Shown one piece after another: positions 19-7,273 of a DNA stretch of 64,000 bases. The DNA lies in the NCBI GenBank assembly GCA_002282015.1, contig NCIJ01000002.1, forward strand, positions 1 through 64,000, in the 5' to 3' direction. The position numbers and the translations under genes are program-made. The notes beneath the pieces are model-generated. The model saw only the letters and a program-made list of their open reading frames with translations, did no database searches and was not told the origin of the DNA. This DNA comes from Sulfuricurvum sp. 17-40-25 (lineage in GTDB: Bacteria; Campylobacterota; Campylobacteria; Campylobacterales; Sulfurimonadaceae). Within the stretch, counting starts at the first letter, position 1; every line of letters starts with the position of its first letter.

Positions 19-420
19 ATGCTAATCCAACTACAAGAAATACAACAAGTGGCCAATGAAGTAATGAATATGTTACATGAAGAAGAGATAGAAATTATCA
101 ATGAATTTCATGATGCTGTTGTGGCCAAAGATATAGAAAAAATCGATGAACTTTTTAAAGTCGTTTTATTTGATGTCGAGGACCACTTTAAAACCGAAGA
201 AGATATGATGCAACAAAATAATTATGGTTATTTCCAGGTCCATAAAAGTGATCATGACACTATGAGAGAAAAGTTGGCAAAGTTTCATAAGCGATGGGAA
301 ATACTCAAAGGACCAACAGAGCTGCAGGGTTTTTTAGAGAAAGATTTTAAGAAGTGGTTAATGCTGCACATTTCAAAATGGGACACTGAAATGGCTTTGC
401 ATCTTAGTGGTGGTAATTAA
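19..420 (+). CDS. Bacteriohemerythrin (133 aa)
   Basis: This is a single-domain four-helix hemerythrin that binds O2 at a non-haem di-iron centre in the cytoplasm. The expected iron ligands are visible: His20 and His31 in the first helix pair, HFKTEE (His57, Glu61), HKSDH (His76, His80) and HISKWD (His117, Asp122). The length is normal for the bacterial family. The start is supported by GGAGA eight bases upstream. A second hemerythrin lies at 2155-2562 on the other strand. Roles in O2 delivery, buffering or sensing are known for the family; which applies here is not visible. Confidence 0.93.
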   Translation: MLIQLQEIQQVANEVMNMLHEEEIEIINEFHDAVVAKDIEKIDELFKVVLFDVEDHFKTEEDMMQQNNYGYFQVHKSDHDTMREKLAKFHKRWEILKGPTELQGFLEKDFKKWLMLHISKWDTEMALHLSGGN

Positions 421-425
421 TCTCT

Positions 426-815
426 TTATTCCTCTTCTTGCGCGTATGGATCAAAATTTGCAATTTGTTCCAGCGCAAGATCAAAGTCAGAAGGGCTTAA
501 TTCAAAAGCATGAATCCCTAAATTAGCTATTAAATACAGTTTATCTGAATCCTGTTCTGTCACTAAAGCAAAAATAGTTTGATCAGGTTTTTTTTCTTTT
601 ATTTCTTTTAGAAGTATGATTCCCTCAAGTGGTTCGACACTTATATCACTAATAACCATATCATATTGATTACTATCAATATACTTTAGTGCTTCGTTAG
701 TACCTAAAACCTTATCCACTTTATGAAACATTTGATCGAATATTGGTGTGTTTGAGTCTAATAATGATTTATCTTCTACTATATAAAGTACATTCCATTT
801 TGCATTTGTTGACAT
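426..815 (-). CDS. Receiver-domain-like protein, degenerate (129 aa)
   Basis: This is a stand-alone CheY-like receiver fold. It keeps an acidic pair near the N-terminus (VEDK, residues 13-16) and a possible phospho-acceptor Asp in VISDIS (about residue 57). The conserved lysine of the KP motif near the end is missing: the matching stretch reads FELSP. It may therefore not signal by classical phosphorylation. AAAGGA precedes the start. It converges with the hemerythrin gene across six bases. No output domain is present, so any partner must be a separate protein. Confidence 0.75.
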   Translation of the reverse strand: MSTNAKWNVLYIVEDKSLLDSNTPIFDQMFHKVDKVLGTNEALKYIDSNQYDMVISDISVEPLEGIILLKEIKEKKPDQTIFALVTEQDSDKLYLIANLGIHAFELSPSDFDLALEQIANFDPYAQEEE

Positions 816-1763: not shown

Positions 1764-2141
1764 ATGAGTGAACAAGCAAGAATACTCTCAGAGATAAATA
1801 AGATCATTATGAACATTTTAAAAACAGGATCCGCATCCGTTGAAGAAGCTGATACAATTGACGAACTTGAAGCATTGTTACACCAGCAAAAGTGTTTTAA
1901 AGAGATAGAAAACAGTGCATATGCTAATCAAGGGGAAGAGATCGCAACACTGTTTTTTAATGAGCATTATGTGGAAGCCATTGATAAAATGTGTGAATGC
2001 GAGATTAGCCCAGACGATTTTTTCGCATTTGCAGATTATCATTATGATGATGATCATGAAGATGAAAATTTAGTAGAAATGTTTACAAATGTATTTATTG
2101 CAGGTGTCAATGAGGCCTATGAGTCGAAGTGTAAAAGTTGA
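1764..2141 (+). CDS. Hypothetical acidic protein (125 aa)
   Basis: I do not recognise this protein. It is acidic and helix-rich, with a His/Asp-rich stretch (DYHYDDDHED, about residues 91-100) that could bind a metal and three cysteines in the C-terminal two thirds besides one near the end. AAGGAGA seven bases upstream of the ATG gives a strong start. A perfect hairpin with a T-run closes the gene. It lies between a GNAT gene and a hemerythrin gene, but nothing shows a functional tie. Confidence 0.65.
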   Translation: MSEQARILSEINKIIMNILKTGSASVEEADTIDELEALLHQQKCFKEIENSAYANQGEEIATLFFNEHYVEAIDKMCECEISPDDFFAFADYHYDDDHEDENLVEMFTNVFIAGVNEAYESKCKS

Positions 2142-2174
2142 GTAAAGCTTTCTATTAAGCTTTACTCGTTTTTG
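2140..2174. terminator. Bidirectional intrinsic terminator
   Basis: An 11-bp perfect stem (GAGTAAAGCTT at 2140-2150 with its complement at 2157-2167) has a 6-nt loop and is followed by GTTTTTG. A T-run is also available on the opposite strand. It sits between two convergent genes and overlaps both of their ends. Confidence 0.8.
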
Positions 2175-2562
2175 CCTGTAGATACGTGGCCATTTCTGTG
2201 TCCATTGTCTGGATATGATGAATTCTCCACGGTGTTAAATTGCCTTTGCTATAAGCATAGATAGCTTTTGGGTCTTTCGTTCTTTCAAAATATTTTACTA
2301 AAGATTTTAGCTCTTCTACGTGTCTGTCATGCTCACTTTTATGCGTAAAATACTCCGGGTACTGACCTTCTTCCATCATCTTCTCTTCTTCTGAAAAGTG
2401 TATGATGGTGTGAGCGAGCAACTCATCTATTGTTTTAGCTATTACTTCTACATTACTATCACTAATAGCTGCATCTAGCTTATTGATTATGAGCATCTCT
2501 TCTAAATGTGTGTCGTTCATACTTGGTATTGATACCATTGGTAATTGTTCTTCTGTTGCCAA
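2155..2562 (-). CDS. Bacteriohemerythrin, second copy (135 aa)
   Basis: This is a di-iron O2-binding hemerythrin. It shows the HF-x2-EE motif (HFSEEE), the HKSEHDRH pair and the terminal HHIQTMD ligand motif. It is divergent from the copy at 19-420, so the two are not a recent duplication. The likely start is TTG at 2562 with AAGGAA about ten bases upstream; an ATG at residue 9 is an alternative. It is 42 bp downstream of the large AAA+ gene on the same strand, so the two may be co-transcribed. Confidence 0.92.
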   Translation of the reverse strand: MATEEQLPMVSIPSMNDTHLEEMLIINKLDAAISDSNVEVIAKTIDELLAHTIIHFSEEEKMMEEGQYPEYFTHKSEHDRHVEELKSLVKYFERTKDPKAIYAYSKGNLTPWRIHHIQTMDTEMATYLQAKTSKA

Positions 2563-2604: not shown

Positions 2605-5226
2605 TTATCTAGCTAGAATCTCATCCAATTCATCTGCATAAATAATCTCTTTTTCAAACAGTAACTTTGATAAGTTTTCTATTGTATCCCAATGTTCATT
2701 GACTAAGTCAACCGTTCTTTTTTGACCCTCAATCATCCATCGTTCAAGGGCACTGTCGATTTTATCATGGTAATGTTTCGTCTCTTTACTGCTGTTAGAC
2801 TTTTCTCTTGCATCCGTCACACCATTGATGTTTATGTATCCAACTTCTTTGTCCATTCCATAATGTGCTATTGCCGCATAAGCATCACGTGTGGCTTGCT
2901 GTAGGTCATTGGATGCACCAGTATCCATTCCATCTTCACCAAAGCGTTTTATTTGAGCTGTTCGTCCTGCTAAAGAGACAGATATTTTGTCTTTAAAATC
3001 TTTGACCGTCATGTTGTCTTGAATATCATTATAATTGTGTGAAATGAAATGTTCGTTGTTATCTTTTGGCGTTAAGCTGACATGGTCTATGTAAATATGA
3101 GGCATTAAGATTTTTGAGATTACCGTGCGTCCGGCTTCATAGATTGCTGTTTCTTCAAACATCTCTTCGGGTGATAAGTACGACTGTCGCTCGCCGTATT
3201 TAATCCGATTAAGTTGATCGATCAAAATATCTTGAGTGATGGCTGGTAGTCCATGACGTAAACAGTAAAAGGATGCTTCTTTACCTAGAAGTTCCAGTTG
3301 CGCACCTGTAAATCCTGCTGTGTACATAAGCAGTTTATTCATATCAAATGAACCGCTGGTAGGTTTTTTTTCAATGATGCTGTCCAAAAAGTATTGTCTC
3401 GCATCTTTATCAAGATTATTGATCTCTATATGAATCTCGACCCTTCCTGGTCTGATGATAGCACTATCGATATTCTCTCTATAGTTGGTTGCAGCTATTA
3501 CAAAGATATCTTCACCTTTTCTAGCCGAAAAGCCATCCATTTCGGATAAGAGTTTGTTGATTGCGACTTCTTTGCCGTTTTCTTGGCCACGCTTTCCGAT
3601 AGTATCAATCTCATCGATAAAGATAATAGCCGGTGCGTATTCTTTGGCTTTGGCAAAAATCTGTTTTGTCTTATCAGGCTGTAAGAGTTCAAGCCCGGTC
3701 ACAGAGATAAAAGGCAATTCCGCTTCTTTGGCAAATGCTTTTGCCAACATCGTCTTTCCTGTACCAGGAGGTCCATATAAAAGCATACCCTTAGGCGGTT
3801 CTATATCAAAACTCTCTAAGCGTTTTGGTTCTTTAAAAAAGTTAATGACTTCTCTTAGTCTTTCTTTTGCTTTATGATGACCTGCAATATCATTAAAAGA
3901 GACTTTTGGTATATCAAAAACGAGTCCATCTTCACTAAAATCTTTGATTCTAATGACTTGCATGAATTTACAACTGTTGACTTTGTAGGTAATGACACCA
4001 TTTTTTTCGGTGATGCTGTCTTTGATATCAAGGGTTGTATTTTTTCTAAAAAGTTCTTTGACAAGGGTCTCATCTTCTATGAGCGGATTGATCCTCTCAT
4101 TTATAAATCTGACAGACTCTTTGGAAAGAGATACCTGTATTTGCTTGAAATTTTTAAGCAATTTATCGGAGTTCTGAATGTAGTCGGTAATTCGGTTAAA
4201 GAAAATCGTACTGACTTTCTCTTTAAGACGTCTCGCATCGAGTTCTGGTGCGAAGTTAAGCATCTGTAATTTCAAAAAGTTATCAAAATTGTTACCTACG
4301 ATAAACTCGATCTTATACTGTGCATAAAAATCGTCTTTATACGCTAAGAATACTTTTTGAGTGATTTTTTCAAATGCTTTATACTCGAGCTTGTTAAACA
4401 AAATAATGTTTGCTTTGGAAAAGCGGGAGACGAGTTCGGGTACGATGGCTTCTTGGACACCACCGCTTCTGCTATCTCTTTTCTTTTCACGCTTAATCGC
4501 TTCTAGAATCATCGATTCTGCTTGGATGTAGTCTTTTTTAACCAGATCTTTGAACCGATAGTCCAGATAGAGTTCTTTCCCCAAACTCGTCGTGATAATA
4601 AATAAGGTTTCAGTAAAATCTACCCAATACGTTGCATTCTCATCGCTGTAGATGATGTCTGGGTCTTCGTTACACGGTTCATCGGTAATCTTATCCCAAC
4701 CACAAGCATCACGCATTCTACCACCCTCGAAGATGGAAAGAAGATTGTTTTGTATGATATTGTCACATTTCTCAAAGGCATCAAGAACGATTACCGCTTT
4801 GGGGTTCCTATGGACGAATCCCGTTAGCTGACCGACACCAAATCCCTTCCAACCGGTAGGATATCCGTACAGTTCTCCACCGTTTTGCTGATGATATTGA
4901 GTCATATCAAATTTCATGATTTTATATTTTGGTAGATGTTGAGACATAAGCTCAGCGAGGAAGGTCTTACCCGTAGCAGGAGAGCCTAGAAAGAGGTAAG
5001 TGGACTTAGGCCCTTTTTCGTCTTTGATATTGTTTTTCATACTGTTGGCTACAGTATTGATCGCCTGTTCTTGTCCAAACAGTTCTTTTGAGAGCTCTTC
5101 TTTGAACTTTTTCGCAAACTGTATGCTGTTTTGAGCTTCATTCAAGGATGAATCGTCTGTATCCTCTTCAAAAGCTTTCTCGTGTTTTGAAATCTGTGCT
5201 TTGACTAATGCTTCTGTACTTGTCAT
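2605..5226 (-). CDS. Two-AAA+ chimera: ClpB-like module plus FtsH-like module with inactive M41 domain (873 aa)
   Basis: Residues about 40-380 form a Clp/HSP100-type AAA+ module (Walker A GSPATGKT at 81-88, Walker B-like AVIVLDAFE, and the GYPTGWKGFG pore-region stretch). Residues 440-680 form an FtsH-type AAA module (Walker A GPPGTGKT 485-492, Walker B IIFIDEID 534-541, IRPGR region 591-595). Residues 680-873 align with the FtsH M41 peptidase and keep GASNDL, but the zinc motif HEAGH reads YEAGR (696-700), losing both histidines. No transmembrane segment is seen, unlike FtsH. I infer an ATP-driven unfoldase or remodelling factor without its own proteolysis. The ClpS-like gene lies directly upstream on the same strand. 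Confidence 0.85.
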   Translation of the reverse strand: MTSTEALVKAQISKHEKAFEEDTDDSSLNEAQNSIQFAKKFKEELSKELFGQEQAINTVANSMKNNIKDEKGPKSTYLFLGSPATGKTFLAELMSQHLPKYKIMKFDMTQYHQQNGGELYGYPTGWKGFGVGQLTGFVHRNPKAVIVLDAFEKCDNIIQNNLLSIFEGGRMRDACGWDKITDEPCNEDPDIIYSDENATYWVDFTETLFIITTSLGKELYLDYRFKDLVKKDYIQAESMILEAIKREKKRDSRSGGVQEAIVPELVSRFSKANIILFNKLEYKAFEKITQKVFLAYKDDFYAQYKIEFIVGNNFDNFLKLQMLNFAPELDARRLKEKVSTIFFNRITDYIQNSDKLLKNFKQIQVSLSKESVRFINERINPLIEDETLVKELFRKNTTLDIKDSITEKNGVITYKVNSCKFMQVIRIKDFSEDGLVFDIPKVSFNDIAGHHKAKERLREVINFFKEPKRLESFDIEPPKGMLLYGPPGTGKTMLAKAFAKEAELPFISVTGLELLQPDKTKQIFAKAKEYAPAIIFIDEIDTIGKRGQENGKEVAINKLLSEMDGFSARKGEDIFVIAATNYRENIDSAIIRPGRVEIHIEINNLDKDARQYFLDSIIEKKPTSGSFDMNKLLMYTAGFTGAQLELLGKEASFYCLRHGLPAITQDILIDQLNRIKYGERQSYLSPEEMFEETAIYEAGRTVISKILMPHIYIDHVSLTPKDNNEHFISHNYNDIQDNMTVKDFKDKISVSLAGRTAQIKRFGEDGMDTGASNDLQQATRDAYAAIAHYGMDKEVGYININGVTDAREKSNSSKETKHYHDKIDSALERWMIEGQKRTVDLVNEHWDTIENLSKLLFEKEIIYADELDEILAR

Positions 5227-5343: not shown

Positions 5344-5646
5344 TTAAACTTCCTCAATCAAGCACCACATCGAAAAACCCTCTTTTTTAGCTTGTTCTTC
5401 GACGATTTTTGCTTTGCTTTCTGCTATTTCGTGCATATACGCTCCGCAAAGACCTTCTCCATGGGTTAGAATGTCGTTTGTGATGATCTCTGCTTTTTCT
5501 CGGCTTTTATGAAATACACTCATAAGGATTCGGATACTAAATTCCCATGAAACATGTTTATCGTAAAAGATGTAAACGAGGTATGCCTTTGGTTTACCTA
5601 ATTGTGGAAAAAAATTGGTTCGATGCGTTCTAATTGTAATTGACAT
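5344..5646 (-). CDS. clpS: ClpS-family adaptor protein (100 aa)
   Basis: The sequence fits the ClpS core: a YIFYDKHVSWEF segment at the substrate-pocket loop, HGEGLCGAY, EIAESKAKIVEEQA and a C-terminal WCLIEE that matches the usual LxCTxE ending. ClpS delivers N-degron proteins to ClpA-type unfoldases. The pocket acidic pair normally seen as DD reads YD here, so substrate choice may differ. The longer frame starts at 5709, but ATG 5646 has AGGG at the right distance and fits family length. It lies 117 bp upstream of the AAA+ chimera on the same strand. Confidence 0.78.
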   Translation of the reverse strand: MSITIRTHRTNFFPQLGKPKAYLVYIFYDKHVSWEFSIRILMSVFHKSREKAEIITNDILTHGEGLCGAYMHEIAESKAKIVEEQAKKEGFSMWCLIEEV

Positions 5647-5830
5647 GTTAACCCTACATAATCTAAATATATTTAATAATTTAGAATTATAGTCAAAAAA
5701 AAGGTACATCCAACTTAATATATTGGGATATATTTATAAGATAATTATATTTTCTTAGTACTTGCAAAGTGTGACAGATTACTCTGCTAATGCTATTTAC
5801 TACTTAGAACATCAGATGTATAGTTTTAGC

Positions 5831-7273
5831 ATGATTCTTAACACTATTACCCTACAGACTCCTTACCTTTCATTGGATAGCGAATTTTATGATTTGGTCG
5901 ATCCTACACCGCTTGATGAACCTTACCTGATCAGTTTTAATCCTGACGCTGCAAAACTGATCGATCTTGACAGTAACAGTTGTGATGACCCTGATTTTAT
6001 TGGGATGCTAAACGGAACCTTTACCCCTGAAGGTTCCCGTCCATTTGCCATGTGTTATGCCGGACATCAGTTTGGTAATTACAATCACTGGCTTGGTGAT
6101 GGCAGAACCATCAATTTAGGAAGAGTTCAGGGCTGGAACTTACAGCTAAAAGGCAGTGGTGAAACTCTCTATTCACGTATGGCAGATGGCAGGGCAGCCC
6201 AACGTTCCTCTATACGAGAATACCTGATGAGCGAATCAATGCATCATTTGGGTATTCCAACCACCCGTGCTTTAGGCATCATCGGATCAAAGACTAAAAT
6301 TATTCGTAATCGCGTAGAGGAAGCCTCTATTGTCATGCGAATGTCTACTAGTTGGGTGCGTTTTGGTACCTTTGAGTACTTCTTTTACTCGGGTAAACAC
6401 AGTAAACTTGAGGCGCTCGCCGAATATGTTATTACAGAGTCCTATTCGCATTTACAAAATGACGATGATCGCTTTTTCAAGATGTTTTGTGAAGTGGTTG
6501 AGCGTACTGCAAGATTGATTGCACAATGGCAAGCAATCGGATTTAATCATGGCGTCATGAATACCGATAACATGTCCATTGAAGGCCTCACGATTGACTA
6601 TGGCCCTTTTGCCATGATGGATGATTTCAGATACGGTTATGTTTGCAATCACACAGACCGTGCTGGTCGTTATGCTTACGGAGAGCAGCCTAATGTTTCT
6701 TATTGGAATCTAACTATGTTGTCAAAGGCTCTTTCTCCTATCATTGACAAAGATCGTATGCAAAAAAAACTTGATGATTTTGGAGCATTTCTCTATCCGG
6801 ATGCCTATGTCGATGTCATGCGTGATAAACTGGGACTGGAGATGAAGCTGGATGGTGACGTCGATCTGATAACAGATCTCGTAGTAGCATTGCATGATAT
6901 CTATGTTGACCACACCCTTTTTTACCGAACACTCAGCCGCTATGATGGTATTAATAAATCCACCATGTATGATATTGTCATGGAGCCTGTGATACTGGAT
7001 AAATGGCTGACTCAATACGATGAACGCTTAGCACAAGAAACACGTACTCAATCTCAACGCCAAGAAGCGATGCTAAAGACCAATCCAAAGTATGTTTTAA
7101 AAAACTATATGCTTCAAGAAGCTATTGAAAAGGCTGATCGTGGTGATTATACGATGGTAGAAACGCTGTTGTTTATAGCAGCACATCCGTATGATGAACT
7201 ACCGGAGTTTGAGCGTTTCGCAGGAGATACGCCTGAAGAGCATAAAAATCTTGGACTTTCTTGCTCGTCATGA
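5831..7273 (+). CDS. selO: SelO-family protein adenylyltransferase (YdiU), 480 aa
   Basis: SelO is a pseudokinase-fold enzyme that AMPylates proteins, usually linked to redox stress. Visible motifs are AGHQFGNY, LKGSGETLYSRMADGRA, SIREYLMSE, HGVMNTDNM and DYGPF (the DFG equivalent). The C-terminus SCSS is the family's redox tail, with Cys instead of selenocysteine. The open frame runs back to TTG 5762; ATG 5831 gives the usual family length of about 480, so I prefer it, though no clear ribosome site is seen. The gene is complete, so the next frame is a separate gene. Confidence 0.9.
   Translation: MILNTITLQTPYLSLDSEFYDLVDPTPLDEPYLISFNPDAAKLIDLDSNSCDDPDFIGMLNGTFTPEGSRPFAMCYAGHQFGNYNHWLGDGRTINLGRVQGWNLQLKGSGETLYSRMADGRAAQRSSIREYLMSESMHHLGIPTTRALGIIGSKTKIIRNRVEEASIVMRMSTSWVRFGTFEYFFYSGKHSKLEALAEYVITESYSHLQNDDDRFFKMFCEVVERTARLIAQWQAIGFNHGVMNTDNMSIEGLTIDYGPFAMMDDFRYGYVCNHTDRAGRYAYGEQPNVSYWNLTMLSKALSPIIDKDRMQKKLDDFGAFLYPDAYVDVMRDKLGLEMKLDGDVDLITDLVVALHDIYVDHTLFYRTLSRYDGINKSTMYDIVMEPVILDKWLTQYDERLAQETRTQSQRQEAMLKTNPKYVLKNYMLQEAIEKADRGDYTMVETLLFIAAHPYDELPEFERFAGDTPEEHKNLGLSCSS

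Follow-up and report, generated by a model that had tools for sequence, protein, structure and literature searches.

What might a protein do that carries a Clp-type AAA module, an FtsH-type AAA module and an M41-like tail whose zinc-binding motif has been replaced? The question was raised by a complete open reading frame with an ATG start (2605..5226, reverse strand) in the window, by which we mean the whole 64,000-nucleotide stretch of Sulfuricurvum DNA analyzed here. The encoded fusion of 873 aa was searched against Pfam, which returned the three parts in the order that an earlier note on this DNA had described: AAA_2 at residues 73-270 (81 bits), AAA at 481-603 (143 bits) and Peptidase_M41 (PF01434) at 691-870. 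The last match, at 89 bits against a cut-off of 29.9, together with FtsH folds recovered by both Foldseek and VIA, places the tail within the M41 profile family. Among NCBIfam models, ClpA (TIGR02639, 103 bits over 36-176) was nearest for the first AAA module and FtsH (TIGR01241, 313 bits over 440-867, equivalog cut-off 600) for the rest of the protein. A further NCBIfam match, to IteA, was rejected as grounds for an antiphage assignment because it reached 99 bits against a cut-off of 510 and reflects general AAA similarity only. The closest named relatives, from a search of named genome contigs, are Sulfuricurvum MAGs, and orthologues in two other Sulfuricurvum genomes are 93% and 92% identical to the window protein.

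The first module (AAA1, residues 39-345; 4192..5112, reverse strand) was assigned as a Clp-D2-type ring module using Pfam, NCBIfam and a VIA match of the ClpB C-terminal domain (D2, 4fd2) to residues 34-409 (Z 23.5). It contains an intact Walker A (GSPATGKT, 81-88), an aromatic pore loop (GWKG, 125-128), an Arg-finger-like R268 and a sensor-2-like DARRLK. Its Walker B reads D149-A150, with Ala in place of the catalytic Glu, and the pair of functional Walker motifs expected of an Hsp100/Clp-type AAA module is thus incomplete. The FtsH-type module (AAA2, residues 439-685; 3172..3912, reverse strand), assigned from Pfam and motif alignment, has Walker A (485-492), Walker B (D538-E539) and RPGR (592-595) all intact; its pore loop 1 (GLELLQPDKTK) is shortened relative to FtsH and VCP and lacks the FVG of FtsH. 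The remainder (residues 686-873; 2608..3171, reverse strand) is the M41 pseudo-peptidase domain, assigned from PF01434 and from FtsH structures matched by sequence and fold. Motif alignment placed YEAGR at the position of the zinc-binding HExxH (residues 696-700; 3127..3141, reverse strand) and GASNDL at residues 770-775 (2902..2919, reverse strand), with D774 at the position expected for the third zinc ligand. Both this loss and this retention had been claimed in the earlier note, as had the lack of a membrane segment, and all were borne out; the highest 19-residue Kyte-Doolittle mean in the fusion is 0.89, leaving no counterpart to the N-terminal anchor of FtsH. An AF2 model (56-row alignment, pLDDT 79.5, pTM 0.59) supports the predicted domain folds, since FtsH was recovered over its C-terminal half, and the plant Ycf2-FtsHi motor also ranked near the top of the matches. 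Note that the earlier note did not include the loss of the AAA1 Walker-B Glu, the lack of FVG in AAA2, the ClpS paralogue upstream of the fusion or the hemerythrin downstream.

Relatives were collected by profile searches of Campylobacterota genomes and of named genome contigs. In the phylum survey, scores above about 265 bits marked true relatives, with the ClpA/ClpB background confined to scores below about 125 bits. The three-part layout is common to Sulfuricurvum, Sulfurimonas, Sulfurovum, Nitratiruptor-like and other Campylobacterota, and is found in a few Desulfobacterales and other MAGs (L113-L115). Motifs were tabulated for 76 sequences, from which three fragments were dropped; the other 73 were scored as clade A (n=22, Sulfuricurvum/Sulfurimonas, including the window), clade B (n=14, Sulfurovum), class C (n=4) and class D (n=33). 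In a tree built from the C-terminal half, with FtsH as the root, the family falls outside FtsH on long branches, and A and B form one clade (34 rows, 99% SH-aLRT), the other 36 rows being classes C and D. The sequence of events within C/D is not secure, since the deeper nodes that join the two classes reach 82-86% support and are points where some long branches converge.

None of the 36 members of clades A and B has HExxH or the AAA1 Walker-B DE (0/36 each), while AAA1 Walker A, the third-ligand Asp, and AAA2 Walker A, DE and RxxR are each present in 36/36. HExxH is kept by all four members of class C, with nearly all ATP motifs intact, and by all 33 of class D, but in the latter AAA1 Walker A is lost throughout (0/33) and AAA2 DE and RxxR remain in only 9/33 and 3/33. 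The family separated from FtsH first and then degenerated in two opposite directions, keeping the motor and losing the blade in A and B, and keeping the blade and losing the motors in D. A single loss of HExxH is the simplest history, because A and B form one clade against the HExxH-keeping C and D. Dead motifs read YEAGR, YQAGR, YEASR, YESGR and one YEAGH in clade A, and REAAH, KEAAH, REASH, REAAQ and RESAQ, with R or K first, in clade B; none of those scored shows a return to HExxH. A sequencing error at 3125-3140 could be excluded, as could a frameshift, since the first His is missing in 22/22 clade-A homologues from independent genomes. Orthologues with an intact HExxH, which would have counted against the earlier note, are absent from the window's own clade and present in C and D, which are more distant at about 25-43% identity. 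The class D proteins (L008, L011, L014 and other loci), in which HExxH is intact and the ATP sites of both AAA rings have degenerated, are apparently M41 proteases without a motor.

Pore loops were compared across the same classes. In A and B the AAA1 aromatic loop takes the form GWKG or GWSG, and in C it mostly contains Tyr; most D members have it deleted, and the remainder either have no such loop or another sequence in its place. In AAA2 the FVG loop is missing across the whole family, by a deletion of several residues relative to FtsH and VCP. Because FVG is what binds substrate in FtsH (PMC9020784), its family-wide absence makes classic threading through the AAA2 ring unlikely, and a simple threading mechanism like that of FtsH does not follow from the sequence. 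Loss of the Walker-B Glu suggests that the AAA1 ring itself is probably unable to hydrolyze ATP, and this loss combined with that of FVG suggests a division in which ring 1 would grip and ring 2 would hydrolyze ATP.

Directly upstream of the fusion, on the same strand, lies a divergent ClpS paralogue (ClpS2; 5344..5646, reverse strand; PF02617), the start of which was placed at MSITIRT by homology to the MAVTIRT starts of orthologues. This position is shared by the window and two sister genomes, and in one orthologous locus the two genes overlap by 11 nt. ClpS2 scores 58 bits against PF02617, about half the 115 bits of the same genome's canonical ClpS. In residues that we take to form the N-degron pocket, from general knowledge of the pocket roles, NDD has become YDK, the Met gate Trp and His Leu; the EIAESK stretch is retained. 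Of 41 Sulfuricurvum genomes, only the 3 with the fusion, and all of these, encode a second ClpS. More widely, one is present in 14/18 clade-A genomes versus 0/19 in B, C and D, where the count of 14 includes two Sulfuricurvum MAGs from the 41-genome survey and many genomes are draft. The other four clade-A genomes, most of them draft, have a single ClpS. In a few clade-A genomes the extra copy outscores the window's ClpS2. ClpS usually docks onto the ClpA N-domain; as clade A has no recognizable domain of this kind, ClpS2 may serve ClpA instead. A ClpS-docking Clp_N domain was also sought in the N-terminal extension of class C and rejected, there being none among the best 25 Pfam rows and only 0.5% probability over 30 columns by hhalign against own-genus ClpA N-domains.

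Directly downstream, again on the same strand and after a gap of about 42-45 nt, is a bacteriohemerythrin (2155..2562, reverse strand), which falls in the same cluster as a PF01814 match. A second bacteriohemerythrin of the conserved locus (19..420, forward strand) was identified by cluster and profile match. At least one such gene lies within two genes of the fusion in 20/21 clade-A loci versus 0/28 others (0/14 in B and 0/14 in C/D). Genomes encode only 3-6 hemerythrins by NF033749, and two of the three in the window genome are at the fusion locus. Two subfamilies recur at clade-A loci, characterized by MLIQ...VANxxMNMLHE and MITQEQLPMVAIPSMNDTH. Other clade-A neighbors include a stand-alone receiver (REC) domain (426..815, reverse strand; PF00072; 12/21 loci), a group III truncated hemoglobin (2ig3, E 1e-17), an LRV repeat protein, a NikA-like RHH protein and, in 7/21 loci, a protein named by eye as SelO/YdiU-like (5762..7273, forward strand), whose membership in the system is putative. 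An acidic 125-aa protein (1764-2141, forward strand) is encoded in 5/21 clade-A loci and matches no Pfam family above the cut-off. The clade-B neighborhood differs, with trigger factor in 7/14 loci. A convergent gene for a protein of 101-103 aa without a Pfam match (cluster c2; L103:10603-10911, reverse strand, and others) is likewise near the fusion in 7/14 clade-B loci. Since clade B has neither ClpS2 nor the hemerythrin linkage, such partners are not required by the fold.

We consider it reasonably probable that the fusion is a soluble AAA+ protein remodeller, probably hexameric, which derives from a Clp-FtsH-M41 fusion protease and has given up proteolysis; the pattern of losses, together with the position of the gene next to hemerythrins and a modified ClpS, suggests a protease turned chaperone. 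The FtsH-type ring would be the motor, the Clp-type ring would stay ATP-bound and hold or grip substrate by its GWKG loop, and the dead M41 ring would form a structural base, such that clients are unfolded or remodelled and then released, not cut. ClpS2 would act as an adaptor with an altered ligand pocket, and the hemerythrins would connect the system to O2, NO or iron status. In its full form, as a hemerythrin-linked non-proteolytic system of microaerobic sulfur-oxidizing Campylobacterota, with a Clp ring that grips, an FtsH ring that powers, its own re-specified ClpS, coupling to O2, NO or iron, and a sister clade that went the other way, keeping the protease and losing the motors, the proposal is put forward tentatively. 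Of its two halves, the link to O2, NO or iron is the less secure and is drawn entirely from gene context.

The earlier note's "unfoldase or scaffold" is a reasonable description of the role judged from the sequence, and the second term deserves separate treatment. The fusion could be a scaffold or nucleotide switch in which AAA2 hydrolysis changes the conformation and thereby holds or releases hemerythrins or ClpS2, for example as a metalloprotein assembly chaperone. Such a role would fit the dead AAA1 Walker B, the missing AAA2 pore loop and the tight linkage to diiron hemerythrins. We nonetheless regard it as unlikely, because linkage by itself is no proof of interaction and because A and B retain the aromatic loop of AAA1, which most of D has lost; this is what one would expect were substrate gripping still important in the former two clades.

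It is more doubtful that the fusion is a regulatory or structural subunit that assembles with the active, membrane-bound FtsH of the genome or with a different M41 protein. Potential partners exist, the same genome encoding a canonical FtsH with an intact HESGH (L001) as well as a degenerate FtsH-like protein (L003), and plant FtsHi in the FtsH12 complex offers a precedent (PMC8197885). However, the fusion has no membrane segment, carries an extra AAA ring in front and belongs to a long-branched family outside FtsH. A second family member with which to pair was not found in 31/33 A/B genomes, so pairing with an HExxH-keeping relative would not be a general rule.

That the M41 domain is still an active peptidase, using an unusual metal site built from Tyr, Arg or Lys, the retained Glu and D774, is highly improbable. 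E697 and D774 are kept in the window and the third-ligand Asp in all scored members of A and B, but L005 and L006 carry Gln in place of the catalytic Glu (YQAGR), and the first residue in clade B is R or K. Zincins that function without both His are not known to us.

Selection on the dead domain was estimated using YN00 for those near pairs in A and B that could be computed, giving dN/dS of 0.024-0.07 for M41 and 0.03-0.04 overall. A gene decaying after loss of HExxH, with no new function, can practically be dismissed. In A and B, M41 does evolve more quickly than the AAA domains; even so, its dN/dS is low (about 0.02-0.07), reading frames are uninterrupted, 36 members share the same fixed losses and the neighborhood is conserved. 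Mean pairwise identity is 72% for M41 versus 84% for AAA2 in clade A and 58% versus 83% in clade B; in class D, M41 is the highest at 58%, with AAA2 at 56% and AAA1 at 38%. The order of domain conservation is thus reversed between the clades. By sequence, the M41 domain in A and B retains its fold signature and experiences purifying selection, but the HExxH zinc site cannot form. Its conservation across the clade supports a selected non-proteolytic role, in line with the earlier argument from a kept fold and lost zinc His to a specific role. The picture it gave was incomplete, as the loss is clade-specific, AAA1 is probably hydrolysis-dead and AAA2 lacks FVG.

A bacterial, soluble, double-ring pseudo-FtsH whose close relatives keep the protease would be a natural experiment in which unfolding and cutting are separated. 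With reciprocal losses in the two sister clades (36/36 versus 33/33), the division of labor can be tested directly, and the hemerythrins and ClpS2 are concrete candidate partners. A search of open-licence PMC text returned nothing on Sulfuricurvum with FtsH/AAA or on Sulfurimonas with hemerythrin/AAA.

Several known systems are related to the fusion in part. AAA1 resembles ClpA by sequence and ClpB D2 by structure match; unlike in those proteins, it has no Walker-B Glu and precedes an FtsH module, and the whole is not a full ClpA/ClpB. ClpS2 is a PF02617 homologue like the canonical adaptor, differing in its lower score and changed N-degron pocket. With FtsH the fusion shares the order and fold of AAA2 and M41, and differs in falling far below the equivalog cut-off and in having no transmembrane segment, FVG loop or HExxH. 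The third FtsH-like protein of the genome is of membrane type, with 554 aa and a degenerate M41 motif YQAGK (L003:1333-2997; G000:C1, about 126000-127700); its relatives in L039 and L120 read YQAAK, and these proteins apparently represent a second, independent pseudo-FtsH lineage in Campylobacterota. Plant FtsHi proteins, which retain AAA+ but not HEXXH, act in a protein-import motor complex, and such pseudo-proteases have been described as restricted to plant chloroplasts (PMC8197885). Chloroplast FtsHi (FtsHi1, 2, 4 and 5; Ycf2-FtsHi motor, PDB 8xku/8xqw, of which 8xku_E aligns with fusion residues 433-873) is like the fusion in keeping the FtsH AAA ATP site, losing HEXXH and being retained because the gene matters. 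FtsHi is membrane-bound, with one AAA ring, and belongs to the plant plastid, whereas the window fusion is predicted to be soluble, is bacterial and has an extra Clp-type ring. Neither an active M41 peptidase nor an FtsH by its motifs, the fusion would work most like an FtsHi pseudo-protease.
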